Part shown: positions 20,450-37,953 of the stretch, piece after piece | Layout: every line of letters starts with the position of its first letter | How positions within the stretch are numbered: position 1 is the first letter of the stretch | Assembly: GCA_947473305.1 (NCBI GenBank) | Contig: CANJCB010000026.1 | Coordinates: forward strand, 1-55,355 | Direction: 5' to 3' | Source: Rhodospirillales bacterium | GTDB lineage: Bacteria; Pseudomonadota; Alphaproteobacteria; ATCC43930; CGMCC-115725 | Length of the DNA stretch: 55,355 bases | Program-made: the position numbers and the translations under genes | The notes under the pieces: generated by a model | Told to the model about the DNA's origin: nothing | Databases searched by the model: none | What the model saw: the letters and a program-made list of their open reading frames with translations, nothing else

Positions 20450-20917
20450 CTATCCGGGGGAATTATGTTGATGCTCACGCTTTCGCCAGCCGACATGCCC
20501 ATCTATCACCGCGGGAACCTCTTCCCTCCCAACCAGCAGCCCTGCATCGCTGAGGTTCTGGGCAGTAAGCTTCGCCAAACGGAAGGCTTGGCGATGTTCG
20601 ACCTCCGGGATCATGACCTTTATCTTGTCAAGGATGATCCCAGCCGTCGGGCTGAGATAGGCCAACTTCCGCACCACCCGCGCCAGTTCTGGACTGATGT
20701 GACACCTTCCGATGAGGAACTGATGGATGAGGCTCGCATTACACCCGAGCGCACGGGCAAGTGGTAGCCGCCATCGCTTCCCGAATATCACCTCGCCAGC
20801 GGCGGTGAGCATCGCGGGCGTCATCGGTCCATCACATTCGGCAGCCATGAGCGACACTTTCTCGATGTGACCAAAACGACCGGCAGGCTCGAGGATGGCG
20901 GTCGGCATTGCTGCCAC
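20450..20917 (-). CDS. HTH-domain protein, probable regulator of the mobile element
   Basis: The 155-residue product contains a helix-turn-helix near the middle (FGKRWRLPLARALGCNASLI followed by HQFLIGRCHISPELARVVRK), similar in layout to phage-type and plasmid-type DNA-binding proteins. The C-terminal part is unrecognised. The start is uncertain: GTG 20917 gives the full frame, while ATG 20848 would begin just before the conserved-looking MTPAMLTAAGEVIFG. It is divergent from the XRE-type regulator at 20978, across about 60 bp that is AT-rich and carries GTTTAA/TTAAAC-like repeats. A role in controlling excision or transfer genes is inferred from position only. Confidence 0.6.
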   Translation of the reverse strand: MAAMPTAILEPAGRFGHIEKVSLMAAECDGPMTPAMLTAAGEVIFGKRWRLPLARALGCNASLIHQFLIGRCHISPELARVVRKLAYLSPTAGIILDKIKVMIPEVEHRQAFRLAKLTAQNLSDAGLLVGREEVPAVIDGHVGWRKREHQHNSPG

Positions 20918-20977
20918 AATCGTTTAAGAATATGTCGTCTGTAAACCGTTGTTTAATAGCCTTCAAGATGATTCGGT

Positions 20978-21247
20978 TTGGGCGTGGACGCTCGAGCGCT
21001 GGTGGCGCGCAATTTACGACGGCTGCGTGTTAGGCGCGGGCTGTCTCAGGAATCCTTGGCGGTCGATGCCGGTATCGATCGCACCTATGTCAGCGGCCTA
21101 GAACGGGGCCTTGAAAATCCGACTGTGGCCGTTCTTGAGCGATTGGCGACCGCGCTCAATTCGGAAATTGTTGAGTTCTTTGTTGTACCCGGCCCGGACG
21201 ATCCGGTCCCCTCACCGCTTCCTAGCGGCAGGCGACGGAGGACCTGA
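20978..21247 (+). CDS. XRE/Cro-type transcriptional regulator
   Basis: The 89-residue protein is a single HTH domain: VARNLRRLRVRRGLSQESLA, VDAGIDRTYVSGLERG, NPTVAVLERLATALN, then a short tail. It is probably a DNA-binding repressor, as is common in mobile elements. The start is TTG 20978 or GTG 20984; neither has a strong ribosome site. Its last 36 bases overlap the 3' end of the TetR gene on the other strand, so the two are convergent and could interfere with each other. Confidence 0.82.
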   Translation: MGVDARALVARNLRRLRVRRGLSQESLAVDAGIDRTYVSGLERGLENPTVAVLERLATALNSEIVEFFVVPGPDDPVPSPLPSGRRRRT

Positions 21248-21850
21248 GGCATTTTTGCGGAGAGCCTTTCTAGGCGTAAGTGCCGCGGTCGCTGCCTCGG
21301 TAAGGACCTCAACCCAATCTATGGAAATGCCTCCCGCGCCACGCGGCTCCGCTCCGGCGTCTACCGCGATCATCGCAGGCCCCAACATAACCGCATAAAG
21401 CTGGCTCGGCGAAAGGGACACGATTTCCTTCGGAGCCCGTTTGGCTGCCCAGCCCGCTAACACAAGTGCAAGGCGCCGCTGGAGGCGCAGGCTCCGGCCG
21501 TTCCAGTTGGCCGGGGTGAACGGTTCCAGGTTTCCGATCAGCTTCCCGAAATGCGGATAGAGCTTTGGCCACATCAGGCAGTTGGAAATCACAGAGCGCA
21601 GATCGCTCTTTACATCCGCCTGGCCTGCCGCCAAGGCCTTCGAGGTCGCGTCGGCGAGCCGCTCGAGGACGCGGTCGAGGACCGCCGCGGCGAGCCCGGG
21701 CTTCTTCCCGAAATTGTGTCTCGCCACAATGACTCCCAACCCGGATTGCAGCGCGATTTTTTCGAAAGTAGCCCCGTTGAAACCGTCGTGAAGAAAGAGG
21801 CTCTCCGCCGCATCTAGGATCTTGTTGCGGTTATTTGCCGAGGCAGACAT
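21212..21850 (-). CDS. TetR-family transcriptional regulator
   Basis: The N-terminal HTH reads NKILDAAESLFLHDGFNGAT then FEKIALQSGLGVIVARHNFG, with GVIVARHNF in place of the usual GVSxGTxYxHF, so the recognition helix is divergent. The C-terminal helical ligand domain is about 150 residues and ends with a basic tail (LTPRKALRKNA). ATG 21850 (212 residues) is preferred; ATG 21874 would lie inside the putative operator. The gene upstream is divergent and distant, so the main target may be its own promoter. The effector is unknown. Confidence 0.85.
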   Translation of the reverse strand: MSASANNRNKILDAAESLFLHDGFNGATFEKIALQSGLGVIVARHNFGKKPGLAAAVLDRVLERLADATSKALAAGQADVKSDLRSVISNCLMWPKLYPHFGKLIGNLEPFTPANWNGRSLRLQRRLALVLAGWAAKRAPKEIVSLSPSQLYAVMLGPAMIAVDAGAEPRGAGGISIDWVEVLTEAATAALTPRKALRKNASGPPSPAARKR

Positions 21851-21867
21851 TGGGGCTTTTCCGGTGA

Positions 21868-21910
21868 TTAGCATATTATGCTAGCATGACATGTTAACAT
21901 TAGCCAGCCA
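21868..21910. promoter_or_regulatory. palindrome cluster, candidate TetR operator
   Basis: GCATATTATGC (21871-21881) is a perfect 5+1+5 palindrome just upstream of the TetR start. It is followed by GCTAGC and then ACATGT and GTTAAC within the next 25 bases. This AT-rich group stands out from the GC-rich surroundings and is a plausible autoregulatory site. Confidence 0.4.
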
Positions 21911-22114: not shown

Positions 22115-22336
22115 ATGTATCCCACCCCAGACATCAGCGACGCTGGCGCATCCAGGCCCGCTGCATCATCGGTGAACCGGCTCGATCTGACGACGCCGTG
22201 GACCCGTCCGGCTCAGCCGGTGGTCAATATCAGGTTGCTCGATCTGGTGAAGCTTTTGGCGCGCCAGGCTGCCGCCGAGTTCCTTCCGCCGGGCGGCCAT
22301 GTCGTAGCCGCCGTTGTATCCGGAGCGGGGGCATGA
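22115..22336 (+). CDS. small protein coupled to the excisionase-like gene
   Basis: The 73-residue product has no recognised family. It reads DISDAGASRPAASSVNRLDL and ends with a probable helix (IRLLDLVKLLARQAAAEFLP). Its TGA overlaps the ATG of the next gene (22333-22336) as ATGA, which supports real translation. It is likely part of the recombinase module; its function is unknown. Confidence 0.45.
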   Translation: MYPTPDISDAGASRPAASSVNRLDLTTPWTRPAQPVVNIRLLDLVKLLARQAAAEFLPPGGHVVAAVVSGAGA

Positions 22337-22518
22337 GCCCGCAGCCGAAACTTTCCCCCTTGATCAGCATCAAAGAAGCCGCCCAGAGGCTCGCCGTCTC
22401 AGTAAAGACCGTACGGCGCATGATCAAACGCGGTGACCTTAAGGTCTATCGCATGTGCCGTGATATTCGCATCTCCGAAGACGACCTTATCGTCTTCGCA
22501 GCAAGGAATTACGGGTAG
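22333..22518 (+). CDS. excisionase-like MerR/AlpA-type HTH protein
   Basis: The 61-residue protein is a winged-helix DNA-binding domain of the excisionase/HTH_17 type: LISIKEAAQRLAVSVKTVRR then MIKRGDLKVYRMCRDIRISE. Such proteins bind near attachment sites and control the direction of recombination, or activate integrase genes. It is coupled by a 4-nt overlap to the small gene upstream and lies 144 bp before a large tyrosine recombinase, so a recombination-directionality role is the best inference. Confidence 0.78.
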   Translation: MSPQPKLSPLISIKEAAQRLAVSVKTVRRMIKRGDLKVYRMCRDIRISEDDLIVFAARNYG

Positions 22519-22662
22519 TGAATAATCGTCCACAAATGTCCATGTCAGCCAACTACTTCTGTATTCGTCGTTAATACATGTATCCACTTACGTAATAACT
22601 AACTGTGTTGCTGTATTCACGAAAACTACCTAATGTCCACTTCAGACCTCACGAGGACAACT
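22519..22662 (+). promoter_or_regulatory. AT-rich leader with short direct repeats ahead of the recombinase genes
   Basis: This 144-bp stretch is clearly AT-richer than its surroundings. ATGTCCATGTCAG (22536-22548) recurs as ATGTCCACTTCAG (22633-22645), and CTGTATTC occurs at 22559-22566 and 22611-22618. Repeats about 50 and 97 bp apart beside an excisionase gene could be recombinase or Xis arm sites, or promoter elements. No intrinsic terminator was seen. Confidence 0.4.
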
Positions 22663-24489
22663 ATGACCACAGCATCTTACTCACGAGCCCACCTCGATTG
22701 GACCACAATTCGGACCTTGGCCGACCTTTTGGCCCTTGTCCTTGCGGACCCGAGCCTCTCCACGAAGATGAAGCAGGAGCGGGCATCGGCTATCCGCGCC
22801 ATCGGCAAGATCTATGACAAGCCGCTCAACGAAATCCCGGCACATGCTGGTTTGATCGCGAAGCGCCTGAAGACCTTCACGCCGGTCATGGCGGGAATGA
22901 CGTCCTCGCGCTTTGCCAATGTGAAGAGCCTCCTGCGGGCCGCGCTGAAGTATGCCGGCCTGACCCACATGCCGGGCCGCCATACCGAACCTCTCAGTCC
23001 TGCCTGGACCGCGCTGATGGTTGGGCGCGACCGCGACGTCCGTATCAGTCTTTCGCGCTTCAGCCATGATTGCACCTCGCGGGGGATCAGCCCGGAGGAT
23101 GTGACCGACGAGGTCATGTCGTCGTTCCGTCACCGCATGGAAACGGAGGGAATGATCAAGGATCCGAAAAACAATCACCGGAGGGCCTGCCTGGCCTGGA
23201 ACATCTTGGCTCCCCAGGTACCGAGCCTGAGGCCGGTGACCGTCCCCTCCGCGCTGCGGACCTATGCCTATGAGCCTGCGGACCTGCCCCAGACCCTTTG
23301 CGCGGACATTGAGGCGTACCTGGCGCATCTGGGCGATCCCGACATCTTCATGAAGAAGTCGTTCAATCCGTTGAGGCCGGCCTCTATCGCAACGCGGCGC
23401 CGCCAGCTCTTCGAATATGTCTCGGCCCTGATCCGGTCCGGCTATCCGGTCGAAACCCTTCTTACCCTCGCGGACGTGACCGATCCGGAGATGATGGTCG
23501 CGGCGCTCCGCTTCATCATGAACCATGCTAAATCTGCCCCGGGCAACACCAATGAGGATGCCGGCCGCGTCCACGCTTGCGGCGTTGCCGGCATGGTCTC
23601 CAAGCTGGCGAAGCATTGGGTCGAGAATACGCCCCCGACCGTGATCCAGGCGAAGGCGCAGGCCGAGCGTGGGAATATCTGCCGCAAGTTGAAGCCTCGG
23701 TATACGGGCCTTCGCGACGGCAACCGTGCCAAGCTGCGCCAGCTCGATGACGACGCGCTCGTGGAACGGTTCCTGACCATGCCCCCGCGTCTCCTGGAGA
23801 TGGCGCGTCGGGCTAAGGTTCCCACGCTCAAGATGGCCCGCCTGGTACAGCTCGCGGTCATCGTCGAGATCCTGCTGATGATCCCGATCCGGCTTACGAA
23901 CCTTGCCGGGCTGAAGATCGACAGCACGATCCTGCGCTCGCGGGCTGGCGCCTGGCACATCTCTATCCCGGGTAACCAGGTCAAGAACGGATCCCCGATC
24001 GAGGCGACGCTTCCGAAGGAGTGCCAGCCCCTTCTGGATCTCTATCTTGAAAAATACCGCCCGCTCCTGCTGGTGGGTACCTCCGATTGGTTCTTCCCCG
24101 GCCGCTTTGCCGGAGAGGCAAAGAGCCCGGACTCGCTTCGTGATGTCATTGTCGGCGGCGTCGCCAAGCACTGCGGGTTGCGGTTGCACCCCCATCTCTT
24201 CCGCCACATCTGCGCCCTCCTCTATCTCCGGGCCAACCCGGGGGCCTATGGGGTCATCCGCAACGTGCTCGGGCATAAGTCCCTGAATACGACGATCGCG
24301 AATTACTGCGGCACCGAAAGCGCCCAGGCGCTCCAGCACTATGAGCAGATGATCCTCCGTAAGCGGGAAGAGGCCACCAAGCCCATCCGCCGCCGCATCC
24401 GGAAGCCTACCGCGCCCGCCAAGATGGTCCGGACCGCGACGAAGCGCCCCCCGTCCTCCAATGCCCCGGAGGGCCATCATGGCGCCTAA
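22663..24489 (+). CDS. large tyrosine recombinase (integrase family)
   Basis: A site-specific DNA recombinase of 608 residues, unusually long; typical phage integrases are about 400. The C-terminal catalytic domain has the full set: R410 (IPIRLTNLAGL), H511-x-x-R514 (LHPHLFRHICA), H538 (VLGHKSL) and Tyr548 (IANYCG). The N-terminal 330 residues are probably an extended core-binding part. The C-terminus is basic (KPIRRRIRKPTAPAK). ATG 22663 has GAGG at the right distance; ATG 22633 lies in a repeat without one. The stop overlaps the start of the second tyrosine recombinase by 11 nt, so the two are made together, somewhat as with TnpB/TnpA of Tn554. Confidence 0.9.
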   Translation: MTTASYSRAHLDWTTIRTLADLLALVLADPSLSTKMKQERASAIRAIGKIYDKPLNEIPAHAGLIAKRLKTFTPVMAGMTSSRFANVKSLLRAALKYAGLTHMPGRHTEPLSPAWTALMVGRDRDVRISLSRFSHDCTSRGISPEDVTDEVMSSFRHRMETEGMIKDPKNNHRRACLAWNILAPQVPSLRPVTVPSALRTYAYEPADLPQTLCADIEAYLAHLGDPDIFMKKSFNPLRPASIATRRRQLFEYVSALIRSGYPVETLLTLADVTDPEMMVAALRFIMNHAKSAPGNTNEDAGRVHACGVAGMVSKLAKHWVENTPPTVIQAKAQAERGNICRKLKPRYTGLRDGNRAKLRQLDDDALVERFLTMPPRLLEMARRAKVPTLKMARLVQLAVIVEILLMIPIRLTNLAGLKIDSTILRSRAGAWHISIPGNQVKNGSPIEATLPKECQPLLDLYLEKYRPLLLVGTSDWFFPGRFAGEAKSPDSLRDVIVGGVAKHCGLRLHPHLFRHICALLYLRANPGAYGVIRNVLGHKSLNTTIANYCGTESAQALQHYEQMILRKREEATKPIRRRIRKPTAPAKMVRTATKRPPSSNAPEGHHGA

Positions 24490-25612
24490 GCGGATCGCGA
24501 TGGGTCTTGACGGCTGGCCCCGTCCTGATCGTCTCGCTTGGGATAGGGCGCTGGCGTCAGGTGATATCTTCGAGGCCGGCGGCCTCGGCGCGGCCTGGGC
24601 GCCGACCACTCGCTCCGGTGTCGCCGCCAGCTTTGGCCGGTGGCTTGCTTGGCTCGCTGCTCGGGGTCTCTTCGACCCCGAGCGGTCGGCGATGACACAT
24701 GCCACCCGTGAGAACCTGGAGGCCTATATAGAGCATCTTCGCACCCGGTATGCCTCCAGTACGGCATCGACCTATCTGTCCTTCCTCGCGATGGCTCTTC
24801 ACGTACTGGTGCCAAGCAGCGATTGGACCTGGCTCAACCCGGCCGTTGCGGCGCTCCGACGGCGGGCAACATCTGTTCGGAACAAGCGGTCGCGTCTTCA
24901 GATGGCAGATGACCTCTACGCCCTGGGGCTCGAGTTGATGGAGGCCGCGGCCGAGGGCAATACGGAAGCCGCCCCGGGGGCCACGACCTGGGAAAGCGCA
25001 ACCAAATTCCGCGATGGCCTTATCATTTCGCTCCTCGCCCTCTGTCCCTTCCGCCGCCGGAACTTTGGTTCGATAGAAATCGGGCGGAACCTCACCCACC
25101 GTGCCGGTGCCTATTGGCTCCTCTTCGAACGCGATGAGACCAAGAACCGCCAGCCGATCGAGGTGCCTTTCCCGGCAGTACTAGTCCCTGCCCTTGAACG
25201 GTACCTTAAGGTCTATCGTCCCTGGCTCGGCAGCCAGACCAGCAATCGGGATCCGCGCTACCCCTTCAAGCCCGCGGGCAAGCGCCTCTGGGTATCGAAG
25301 ACCGGCTCATCATTGAGTCCGGAAAGCTTTTATCAATCGGTTCTTTCGCGCACCGCCGCCAAGTTCGGCCGGTCAGTGAACCCGCATCTCTTTCGGGACT
25401 GCGCTGCGACGACGATCGCCACCTCGGATCCCGAGCATGTACGGATCACAACGAGCGTGCTCGGTCATAGCAGTCTCGCCACGTCGGAAAACTCCTATAA
25501 CCATGCGCAAGCGCTCGAAGCCTGCCGGCGGGTCCAGGATGGAATAATCGCCTTCCGTCGGTCCTTGGGAGCCCGCCAGAAAATCCAGAAACCCGATATC
25601 GAGGAGATCTAA
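24479..25612 (+). CDS. second tyrosine recombinase
   Basis: The 377-residue protein has the catalytic residues of the family: an Arg at about 192 (CPFRRRNFGSI), H303-x-x-R306 (NPHLFRDCAAT), H330 (VLGHSSL) and Tyr340 (ENSYNHA). The core-binding domain includes YIEHLRTRYASSTASTYL. It starts inside the end of the first recombinase gene and stops 3 bp before the serine recombinase. The pair differ strongly in length and sequence, so they are not a recent duplication. Joint action on one element is inferred from coupling. Confidence 0.9.
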   Translation: MAPKRIAMGLDGWPRPDRLAWDRALASGDIFEAGGLGAAWAPTTRSGVAASFGRWLAWLAARGLFDPERSAMTHATRENLEAYIEHLRTRYASSTASTYLSFLAMALHVLVPSSDWTWLNPAVAALRRRATSVRNKRSRLQMADDLYALGLELMEAAAEGNTEAAPGATTWESATKFRDGLIISLLALCPFRRRNFGSIEIGRNLTHRAGAYWLLFERDETKNRQPIEVPFPAVLVPALERYLKVYRPWLGSQTSNRDPRYPFKPAGKRLWVSKTGSSLSPESFYQSVLSRTAAKFGRSVNPHLFRDCAATTIATSDPEHVRITTSVLGHSSLATSENSYNHAQALEACRRVQDGIIAFRRSLGARQKIQKPDIEEI

Positions 25613-25615
25613 GCT

Positions 25616-27232
25616 ATGCGGGCAGCGCTCTATTCCAGGTACAGCACAGAGCTGCAGCGGGACGCATCGATCGAAGATCAGGTGCGCCGTTGCACCGCCC
25701 GTGCCGCGGCCGAAGGCTGGGAAGTCGTCGGGACGTTCAACGATCACGCGCGGAGCGGCGCCGATCGCTTCCGGCCAGCCCTCCAGGAGCTGATGCAGGC
25801 GGCACGCGACGGCCAGTTCGATATCGTGGTGAGCGAGGCGATCGATCGCCTCTCGCGCGACCAGGAGGACATCGCTGCCTTCTATAAGCAGCTCTCGTTC
25901 CTTGGCATCAAGATCGTCACGTTGGCCGAAGGCGAGATCAACGAGCTTCACATCGGGATGAAGGGCAGTATGAACGCCCTCTTTCTGAAAGACCTCGCGA
26001 TGAAAACCCATCGCGGTCTTGAAGGACGCGTCAGGAAGGGCCGCTCCGCCGGCGGCAGGGCCTTTGGATACGATATTGTTCGAGAGATGGATGCGCGGGG
26101 AGAACCGGTCCGCGGCGGGCGCACGATCGATGACGCCGAGGCCGTTATCGTCCGTCGGATATTCAAGGACTTTGCAGCCGGGCGATCACCCGCCGTTATC
26201 GCCCGCGAGCTGAACCAGGAGGGCATCGCCGGTCCAGACGGGCGCCCCTGGCAGCGCAGTGCCATGACCGGTCATAGCCGGCGCCGCAGCGGGGTTCTCC
26301 GCAACGAGATCTATATCGGTCGTCTGATCTGGAACCGTCAGCGCTTCCTGAAAGACCCCAGGACGGGCAAGCGCGTTTCTCGGATCAATCCTGAAAGTGA
26401 ATGGATCATTGAGCCGGTACCGGAATTGCGCATCGTCGATGACGACCTCTGGGCCCTGGTGGCCGAGCGGCTCGGCGACATCGAACAATCCCCACGGGTG
26501 CGAAAGCTTCGCGCTTCCCGCTTCTGGGAACGGCGACGGCCTGGCCATCTGCTCACCGGTCTTGTGCGCTGTGGGTGCTGCGGAGGCGCCGTCATCTCCA
26601 CGGGGGGTGATTATCTCGCCTGTTCAGCGGCACGGAGGATGGCTACATGCGAGAACAGGCGGGGGATCCCCCGCCGGCTTCTGGAGGAGTTCATCCTCGA
26701 CAATCTGCGCCATCACCTGATGGCGCCGGAACTCGTCAAAGCCTTCATCGCCGAGTTCACCATCGAGACCAACCGCCGAGCTTCCGATCAGGAGGTTCGT
26801 ACTAAGCACAAGGGCAAGGAGCTTGCCGACGTGACGCGCCAGATCGATGGCTTGATCTCAGCCATCGCGGACGGGCTGCGCACATCGGGCATCAAGGCGA
26901 AGCTTGAGGAGCTGGAACATCGCCATGCGTCGCTCGAAGCCGAAATCTCGGCGGCGCCGGTATCCGTCCCGCGGCTCCATCCGAACCTCGCGGAGCTTTA
27001 CCGCCGCAAGGTGGCCGATCTCAGCAAGGCGCTAGAGGACCCGTCCTGCCGCGATGAAGCCCTCGGCATTCTTCGCGGGTTGATCGAGGCCGTCGAAGTC
27101 CACCCATCAGCCGATGGCATCGAGATCGAGTTCAAGGGCGCGATCGCCAACATGATCACCCTGACCACCCCGTCCCGGCAGAAACCAGACGACCAATTCG
27201 CGATTGCGGTTAAGCAGGTAGCGGGGACTTGA
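25616..27232 (+). CDS. large serine recombinase
   Basis: The 538-residue protein has an N-terminal resolvase domain with the catalytic Ser10 (ALYSRYSTELQ), VSEAIDRLSRDQEDIAAFYK, and the following recombinase domain (GRAFGYDIVREMD, FAAGRSPAVIARELNQEGI). A zinc-ribbon (LVRCGCCGGAV ... CENRRGI) and a coiled-coil region (LADVTRQIDGLISAIADGLR and after) follow. This is the architecture of large serine integrases. It starts 3 bp after the second tyrosine recombinase and is the last gene before the backbone. A serine recombinase in one transcript with two tyrosine recombinases is unusual. Confidence 0.92.
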   Translation: MRAALYSRYSTELQRDASIEDQVRRCTARAAAEGWEVVGTFNDHARSGADRFRPALQELMQAARDGQFDIVVSEAIDRLSRDQEDIAAFYKQLSFLGIKIVTLAEGEINELHIGMKGSMNALFLKDLAMKTHRGLEGRVRKGRSAGGRAFGYDIVREMDARGEPVRGGRTIDDAEAVIVRRIFKDFAAGRSPAVIARELNQEGIAGPDGRPWQRSAMTGHSRRRSGVLRNEIYIGRLIWNRQRFLKDPRTGKRVSRINPESEWIIEPVPELRIVDDDLWALVAERLGDIEQSPRVRKLRASRFWERRRPGHLLTGLVRCGCCGGAVISTGGDYLACSAARRMATCENRRGIPRRLLEEFILDNLRHHLMAPELVKAFIAEFTIETNRRASDQEVRTKHKGKELADVTRQIDGLISAIADGLRTSGIKAKLEELEHRHASLEAEISAAPVSVPRLHPNLAELYRRKVADLSKALEDPSCRDEALGILRGLIEAVEVHPSADGIEIEFKGAIANMITLTTPSRQKPDDQFAIAVKQVAGT

Positions 27233-27235
27233 TGC

Positions 27236-27288
27236 GGGCATCTGTGTGGGACTTCGCAGAGATGCCCAGATCAAGTCCGGGCATGACG
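27236..27288. repeat. palindromic repeat at the island/backbone junction
   Basis: GGGCATCT (27236-27243) pairs with AGATGCCC (27260-27267), and a 28-bp unit (27261-27288, core ATCAAGTCCGGGCATGACG) follows. The same 28-bp unit occurs in reverse orientation, with one mismatch, at 37802-37829 in the backbone. It starts 4 bp after the serine recombinase stop, so the island edge lies in or next to it. No direct-repeat attachment site could be identified, because the left edge is outside or decayed. Confidence 0.7.
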
Positions 27289-27334: not shown

Positions 27335-27766
27335 CTACACCAAATCCCGCAGCATCGCGACCAGCGGCTTGTCCGCCGCCGGCATCGGATAGTCCCCCAT
27401 CTTCTGCGGCCGGACCCAGGCGAGTTGCTGGCCCTCCAGCGCCGTCACCGTCCCCTGCCAGACCCGGCAGACATAAAGCGGCATCAAGAGGTGGAACCGC
27501 TCGTAGCTATGCGACGCGAAGGTGAAGGGGGCGAGGCAGCTTTCCGCCACGTCGATGGCGAGTTCTTCCTTCAATTCCCGGATCAGGGCCGCCTCGGGGG
27601 TCTCGCCGGGATCGACCTTGCCGCCGGGGAACTCCCAGAGGCCCGCCATGGGCTTCCCCTCCGGCCGCCGCGCCAGGAGCACGCGGCCGTCAGGGTCCAC
27701 CAGGGCGACGCAGACGACGAGGACGACCGGCAAGGCCGGCGGCGTCTCAGCTCCGGTAGCTGCCAT
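27335..27766 (-). CDS. mutT: MutT-type 8-oxo-dGTP diphosphatase
   Basis: A Nudix hydrolase that removes oxidised dGTP from the nucleotide pool. The 143-residue product has the full Nudix box (GGKVDPGETPEAALIRELKE then EELAI), the substrate-side segment LLARRPEGKPMAGLWEFPGG, and FASHSYERFHLLMPLYVC typical of MutT. It overlaps the 3' end of argJ by 20 nt, and an argJ-mutT order is common in Rhodospirillales-like genomes. It is the first backbone gene after the island and looks undamaged, so the insertion spared it. Confidence 0.92.
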   Translation of the reverse strand: MAATGAETPPALPVVLVVCVALVDPDGRVLLARRPEGKPMAGLWEFPGGKVDPGETPEAALIRELKEELAIDVAESCLAPFTFASHSYERFHLLMPLYVCRVWQGTVTALEGQQLAWVRPQKMGDYPMPAADKPLVAMLRDLV

Positions 27767-37793: not shown

Positions 37794-37801
37794 CACTTAC
37801 A

Positions 37802-37875
37802 CGTCATGCCCGGACTTGATCCGGGCATCTTTCTCCGGCGGAGGGAGATGGCCGGGTCAAGCCCGGCCATGACGA
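37802..37875. repeat. pair of inverted GGGCAT-type repeats
   Basis: CGTCATGCCCGGACTTGATC (37802-37821) continues to GGGCATC at 37829. After 18 bp a variant in opposite orientation follows (37848-37875, ATGGCCGGGTCAAGCCCGGC). Each unit is itself a hairpin and the two face each other. The first unit equals, in reverse, the repeat at 27261-27288 with one mismatch. Confidence 0.8.
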
Positions 37876-37953
37876 CGTAAGGAAAGACAACTCTGCCGCG
37901 CTTGACCCCCTCCCGCAAGCCTCCTACCGTCTCGCCGCAAAGCGGGGGCGGGC

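Follow-up and report, generated by a model that had tools for sequence, protein, structure and literature searches.

Two tyrosine recombinases and a large serine recombinase share a conserved five-gene block that looks like a composite mobility module of Alphaproteobacteria

The 55,355-bp stretch of Rhodospirillales DNA analysed here (the window), which is one entire contig (G000:C26), carries beside copper and metal genes a block of five plus-strand genes in which two tyrosine recombinases, TR1 and TR2, are followed by a large serine recombinase (SR). We read this block, with moderate confidence, as a composite mobility module in which SR integrates the island while the TR pair acts at an internal site of its own, probably resolving multimers. 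The genes lie where the initial annotation had placed them and comprise a small open reading frame (ORF; 22115–22336; 73 residues, motif LVKLLARQAAAEF) that is the conserved companion of SR, an excisionase-like helix-turn-helix (HTH) protein (22333–22518; 61 residues) that opens the tyrosine cassette and also occurs in tyrosine-only plasmid cassettes, TR1 (22663–24489; 608 residues), the Cre/Xer-like TR2 (24479–25612; 377 residues), and SR (25616–27232; 538 residues), the likely integrase of the island. They are packed with a 4-nt overlap, a 144-bp leader between HTH and TR1, an 11-nt overlap and a 3-bp gap, and an in-frame ATG at 22633, upstream of the start chosen here, would give a TR1 of 618 residues. 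In what follows, the cassette is HTH–TR1–TR2, the module is the small ORF plus the cassette plus SR, and L- and G-numbers are the locus and genome labels used in the comparison sets.

Loci with these five genes next to other cargo are found in many alphaproteobacteria, and the block therefore appears to be a genuine composite mobility module rather than a chance grouping of genes. Among 61 relatives, G014, which belongs to the same family, has HTH–TR1–TR2–SR in the same order at ~33/39/49% identity, and G012 retains module remnants. Of 385 genomes sampled from the class, 10 besides the window's contain TR2 (E < 1e-40), with SR adjacent in six (G416, with a 984-bp gap; G412, where SR is frameshifted; G232, G324, G086 and G276), not found beside it in three (G394, G079 and G055), and unjudgeable in one, the G117 contig ending inside TR2; G232 and G324 are the same sequence (99.99%). 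Since SR (E ≤ 1e-60) occurs in only 34 of these 385 genomes, its abundance does not explain the adjacency. A phylum sample of 398 genomes gave TR2 (E ≤ 1e-25) in four besides the window's, one of them (G764) with the complete order small ORF–HTH–TR1–TR2–SR and three without SR. We then relied on a set collected by scanning contigs with the TR2 alignment and no SR information (the SR-blind set), which yielded 55 loci, 54 of them with TR2 by profile (L176 being the one without). At 37 of these 54 loci, an SR of the same family lies 11–277 bp downstream on the same strand, four of these SRs being frameshifted into two pieces and a few cut at contig ends, which answers the check suggested in the initial annotation, recurrence of the genes with other cargo; the first outcome that it named as refuting, SR and TR-pair homologues never occurring together elsewhere, did not arise. 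Two more loci (L144 and L158) have a distant SR (scores 70–73) on the same strand 1.2–1.3 kb behind TR2, and 15 lack SR, 10 of these with at least 2,587 bp of downstream sequence and five, with 1,040 bp or less, unjudgeable. Counts include the duplicates L133 (of L130), L174 (of L152, also G232/G324), L165 (of L073) and L159 (of L077) unless stated otherwise, and record titles, with labels taken as given, are mostly alphaproteobacterial, with some metagenome-assembled genomes labelled Marinimicrobia, Gammaproteobacteria, Acidobacteriia or KSB1. The distant SRs (L144:11060–12580 and L158:12815–14290) have no small-ORF match beside their HTH, and the two loci may represent a separate joining of the cassette to a different family of SRs. 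The module is also carried by two Azospirillum plasmids, the TSH58 copy being broken by frameshifts and the A. oryzae copy split between TR1 and TR2; in the latter (L041, plasmid unnamed6) other DNA of ~21.6 kb, at ~11.7–33.3 kb, separates the two genes of an otherwise complete module.

The catalytic residues of all three recombinases are intact. TR1 and TR2 match Pfam Phage_integrase (E 4.4e-9 and 8.3e-9, respectively) and, as the initial annotation had noted, both have complete catalytic sets (R410, K441, H511, R514, H538 and Y548 in TR1; R192, K222, H303, R306, H330 and Y340 in TR2), so that the R-K-HxxR-H-Y residues and the fold of tyrosine recombinases are both present. In 36 aligned TR1 and 35 aligned TR2 sequences, the window included, R, K, the second R and Y are invariant, and all six residues are as in the window in 26/36 TR1 and 34/35 TR2; in other rows, Q replaces Y in the TR2 of L036, and one H is changed in L076, L101 and L103. 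AlphaFold2 models of TR1 and TR2 have a mean predicted local distance difference test score of 89.0 and 90.0. In alignment rows spanning both domains, TR1 residues ~209–568 superpose on Cre and XerH (Z ~14–15.6, root-mean-square deviation 3.6–4.5, ~275–304 residues), preceded in the model by an additional helical part of ~200 N-terminal residues, and the best Foldseek rows for TR2 are Cre, XerH and XerA; the first 200 residues of TR1 are little tested by such rows, and absences from the fold searches (Foldseek/VIA) are not used as evidence. SR has the Resolvase, Recombinase and Zn_ribbon_recom domains of large serine recombinases, and its Ser10, which is intact, is invariant in the five SRs compared. 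The HTH protein matches HTH_17 and the TIGR01764 excisionase family, and no Pfam or NCBIfam match was found for the small ORF.

The small ORF tracks SR in both presence and position, and hence the two belong together with the cassette sitting between them. With a profile built from 13 seeds (family motif L..LxRLLARxAAxE), we found the small ORF at HTH, from a 56-nt overlap to 127 nt upstream, in all 26 HTH-bearing loci with SR (20/20 when the six that are profile seeds or copies of seed loci are set aside), whereas none of the six HTH-bearing loci that lack SR despite ample downstream DNA has it, and neither do L144 and L158 (Fisher p 1.1e-6 with duplicates in; 8e-6, 24 vs 5 loci, with duplicates out). 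Moreover, at 6 of 10 loci with SR but no cassette, the small ORF lies 2–20 nt ahead of SR, with scores of 8.3–30.3, some of them weak. In L159 and L164, where the contigs end at TR2, the small ORF is present, and SR is therefore expected beyond the contig end. The small ORF is thus a candidate accessory or directionality factor of SR.

SR itself is likely the integrase, as its family and, in relatives, an attachment site at the end of its gene suggest. In many relatives, the SR gene terminates with the 3′ half of elongator tRNA-Met(CAT), read backwards, up to TTCAGGTTATGAG, and what follows this half is either the remainder of an intact tRNA-Met or unrelated to it. In a first set of 24 SR ends, the tRNA-Met half was present at 7/10 module ends and 6/14 SR-only ends, and ARAGORN called an intact tRNA-Met at L034, L041, L042, L073, L078, L087 and L091; in the SR-blind set, the tRNA-Met core was found at 21/39 SR ends, with an intact tRNA-Met directly behind in 13/39. 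Because SR-only islands share the tRNA-Met site, the TR pair is not needed for target choice. A tRNA-Met target has precedent in the Paracoccus phage vB_PamS_Pami6, described in PMC6536676 as a serine-recombinase phage at tRNA-Met; large serine integrases of this kind share with SR the Resolvase, Recombinase and zinc ribbon domains and, in SR relatives, the tRNA-Met(CAT) site. Unlike SR in the module, however, the known ones act without neighbouring tyrosine recombinases.

Several observations were made at tRNA genes and SR ends. A second, degenerate tRNA-Met copy 30.2 kb upstream in G412, in the same orientation, was considered as an element end and rejected, being nearly full length and beside a 5S-like remnant. 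In G416 (G416:C1:4918880 and 4961519; L072 and L094), two tRNA-Met 3′ halves lie 42.6 kb apart in the same orientation with non-tRNA sequence behind each, a pattern suggestive of islands stacked at a single hot spot. The intact tRNA-Met of the window's genome (G000:C84:72–148; L096) has the flank cagctagata in common with the G416 half-site (L094), which hints at a further element family using tRNA-Met. The SR-only islands L089 and L090, which come from different genomes and are 99.0% identical over 10.7 kb, lose their similarity shortly after the SR end, which makes them well suited for defining an SR junction at a target other than tRNA-Met. The sole tRNA that ARAGORN called in the window (Arg, ccg; 37800–37878) overlaps a perfect repetitive extragenic palindromic (REP) unit at 37803–37829, and either the REP unit abuts the tRNA end or the call is spurious.

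Cassettes without SR also exist. Five annotated stretches (L012 and L101–L104) carry HTH–TR1–TR2 and no neighbouring large SR, and in four of them a ParA gene is listed nearby. Among 72,556 plasmid records searched at 1e-5, TR2 matched in 18 and TR1 in 20, mostly Roseomonas, and R. gilardii U14-5 has two plasmids with one cassette apiece. Neither TR1 nor TR2 had a match at 1e-5 in 50,697 phage records, and no TR match was confirmed in viral contigs. L130 and L133, on the Siccirubricoccus record NZ_JAHREN010000003.1, resembled a pair of cassettes sharing the same leader, a reading that was discarded; the two stretches agree at 99.9% over 21.5 kb and lie 82.7 kb apart, and are therefore probably one circle, a plasmid with an SR-less cassette, assembled twice, which gives no evidence of exchange.

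The cassette brings with it a candidate site in the HTH–TR1 leader (22519–22662 in the window; plus strand), where TGTCC repeats accompany a dyad that may be the binding or crossover site of TR1 and TR2. Its outer arms, TCGTTAATAC at 22568–22577 and GTATTCACGA at 22613–22622, form 9 of 10 pairs with a start-to-start distance of 45. HTH and TR1 are ~120–260 bp apart in most loci, and we compared 48 leaders, leaving out L074 and L133 as duplicates. TGTC is enriched in a set of 46 leaders (136 occurrences vs 39.7 in mononucleotide shuffles). In the 48 leaders, inverted 10-bp arms with at least nine pairs peak at start-to-start distances of 41–49, almost only at odd values, which indicates a fixed centre. 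Such arms occur at offset 43 in 15/48 leaders and at offset 45 in 16/48, against 0.24 per offset in shuffles, and arms with 9–10 of 10 pairs at offsets 43–47 occur in 19/48, against a mean of 1.25 and a maximum of 4 in 20 dinucleotide shuffles. The symmetry is kept while the arm sequences differ, as in TCGGGACAAC, TAGTGAAAAT, TCGTTATTAC, CGTTAATACC and TCGTGCGTCC. By a score for the whole palindrome, at most 5 of 100 shuffles were as good in 22/48 leaders (16/30 with SR, 4/11 without and 2/7 others). The window leader is single copy, as expected of a resolution site; no second copy was found in the window's genome, and within loci there are only short, chance-like matches. A symmetric, single-copy site close to the recombinase genes, as in resolution systems, is thus present, with significant symmetry in roughly half the leaders.

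By their distances, SR and the TR pair look uncoupled in history. In a tree of 21 SRs, a single clade of the nine module SRs was rejected (approximately unbiased (AU) test, p 5.65e-5), and with it a single origin of module-bearing SRs, and the window SR groups with the solo SR of L091 (support 100/99). Across nine loci, TR1 and TR2 distances are correlated (r 0.59, p 0.0027), and SR distances showed no correlation with those of TR1 (r 0.03, p 0.43) or TR2 (r 0.00, p 0.50). It thus appears that parts were joined, or lost, on more than one occasion, exchange itself being not proven by these sequence comparisons. The initial annotation had raised a unit that needs both chemistries, a need that the data do not show: both SR-only and tyrosine-only versions occur, the nine loci give no correlation of SR with TR distances, and the sole ends found, those at tRNA-Met, go with SR.

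We therefore favour a division of labour. SR and the upstream small ORF would form the integration part, which in relatives uses elongator tRNA-Met(CAT) with a common core at the anticodon, the SR gene ending in the attachment site. Nested between them sits a self-contained HTH–TR1–TR2 cassette bringing its own leader dyad, at which, and not at the island ends, TR1 and TR2 may act jointly, most likely resolving multimers or cointegrates of the circular or plasmid state, much as Cre and Xer serve other replicons. HTH would be an architectural or directionality factor, and the five genes may be co-transcribed. We favour a resolution role because of the solitary plasmid cassettes, the internal, single-copy symmetric site, the Cre/Xer fold and the co-evolving partners. 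The cassette resembles Cre/lox, XerC/XerD and XerH-dif in fold, in having two recombinases of the same family, in its dyad beside the genes, and in the plasmid context of solitary copies. It differs in the ~200 extra N-terminal residues of TR1 and in its site, which covers ~55 bp, its outer arms being 45 bp apart, and is longer than dif (28 bp) or lox (34 bp). The initial annotation had offered two options, enzymes acting at different sites or two modules fused at the edge of a copper island, and each holds in part: the sites are probably different and modules were combined, but the joint is not at the island edge, since the cassette interrupts the integration module, with the small ORF on one side and the SR gene on the other.

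Several points weigh against this reading. The whole-palindrome test fails in 26/48 leaders and is passed by 4/11 tyrosine-only ones, the leader counts are not independent because the leaders are homologous, and the dyad might be an operator; the resolution role is deduced from context and site. In G416, 984 bp separate TR2 from SR. The tRNA-Met core is absent at 18/39 SR ends (contig ends, frameshifts or other sequence), and the window copy has no tRNA tail, its SR gene ending ..QVAGT and running into a REP-like repeat that may mark a secondary target, a deletion or a different att site. L080 shows the small-ORF motif by eye and SR was not found there, its TR2 being cut short. Finally, the TR trees have poor resolution, and a history in which TR1 or TR2 follows the SR clades is not rejected by AU tests (p 0.09–0.36), so that independent SR and TR histories are suggested, not proven.

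The alternative that survives best, although we consider it unlikely, is that both chemistries serve one mobility cycle, SR integrating at tRNA-Met and TR1/TR2 with HTH excising, circularising or copying the island for transfer. The tight conserved order, with SR directly behind TR2 in 37/54 loci, would fit such a cycle, as would the head-to-tail arrangement of small ORF and HTH and the retained TR catalytic residues, and the joining of the SR part and the cassette in several SR lineages, given that one clade is rejected, suggests a benefit of having both. However, there are islands with SR alone at this tRNA site and plasmid cassettes with the TRs alone, the SR–TR distances are uncorrelated (r 0.03 and 0.00), and no TR sites were seen at the ends.

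Less probable still, and in our view doubtful, is that HTH–TR1–TR2 is a site-specific transposon of the Tn554 kind inserted between the small ORF and SR, the latter being a passenger neighbour. A long and a normal-sized tyrosine recombinase lie side by side in Tn554 and its relatives (TnpA, TnpB and TnpC), as described in PMC3414803, and the cassette is present or absent across SR lineages. Yet the cassette junctions run from gene to gene, overlapping or separated by a few bp on the left side and by 11–277 bp on the right, the symmetric site is internal, no terminal repeats were noticed (no systematic search was made), and solitary plasmid cassettes are not flanked by a small ORF or an SR target. 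The module also differs from Tn554 in its long–short order, with HTH in front, SR behind and no TnpC-like gene seen; no staphylococcal plasmid was among the 18 TR2- and 20 TR1-matched plasmid records (1e-5), Tn554 itself not having been aligned. A tandem insertion of two unrelated integration modules in a hot spot, with no functional link, would suit the stacked tRNA-Met half-sites, such as the G416 copies 42.6 kb apart, and the seemingly uncoupled SR and TR histories, but is very improbable and already hard to hold given the same order, strand and short spacing in 37/54 SR-blind loci at ~30–45% protein identity and a cassette that splits the small ORF from SR.

In the window, the island side (1–22114) holds copper and metal cargo, namely an RND pump, membrane fusion protein, cupredoxin, outer membrane factor, multicopper oxidase, P-type ATPase and NicO. 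Between this cargo and the module, at 20450–21874, are three regulator-like genes (YdaS-like by a weak match, XRE-type HTH and TetR). On the other side, the 3′ end of the SR gene (ggtagcgggga) continues directly into a REP-like inverted repeat (27216–27287 together; plus strand), with no tRNA, which is the probable junction with chromosomal sequence; the REP unit at 27261–27287 has 15 copies in the genome with up to two mismatches. A mutT gene (27335–27766) adjoins SR, with argJ- and secA-like ORFs (names assigned by eye, without a search) farther downstream, and G+C per kb is 0.57–0.65 up to ~27 kb and 0.60–0.72 beyond. Neither a left end for the window's island nor an empty site was found, and the gene downstream of mutT is not common to the compared loci (20, the window's included). 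Upstream cargo, tallied over 62 ORFs pooled from 14 loci (L144, L158 and 12 that have the family SR), includes strong PADLOC matches to MzaE, a type IIG restriction-methylase, DRT-type RTasSbcB and LmuB, the Pfam family AIPR, and metabolic and transport families; the cargo scans covered 62/76 and 45/58 of the picked ORFs.

The statement of the initial annotation that known multi-recombinase units use one catalytic family agrees with passages of PMC3414803 and PMC10214605. RIT elements, GInts and SEs, with tyrosine-recombinase trios or one catalytically dead fold protein, resemble the module in having several recombinase genes per block; the module differs from RIT elements in having two active tyrosine recombinases and one serine recombinase with no third tyrosine recombinase, and from GInts and SEs in that both TRs keep their catalytic residues. 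A tyrosine pair and a serine recombinase as a unit were not described in the literature searched (including the accessible parts of PMC3414803, PMC6536676, PMC8138268 and PMC10214605), which covers few subscription papers and is weak evidence of novelty. We propose only tentatively that there are alphaproteobacterial islands using both chemistries as a unit, which would combine a tRNA-Met serine integrase, an obligatory tyrosine heteromer at an internal dyad, a putative five-gene operon, and defence or metal cargo.

The block thus unites two catalytic families in an arrangement that is conserved across dozens of alphaproteobacterial genomes. Its parts are exchangeable and its candidate site is defined, which makes a split of labour between integration and resolution directly testable. 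As the cargo includes anti-phage defence and copper resistance, the module would help such genes spread, and the TR pair with its site might offer a new recombination tool.

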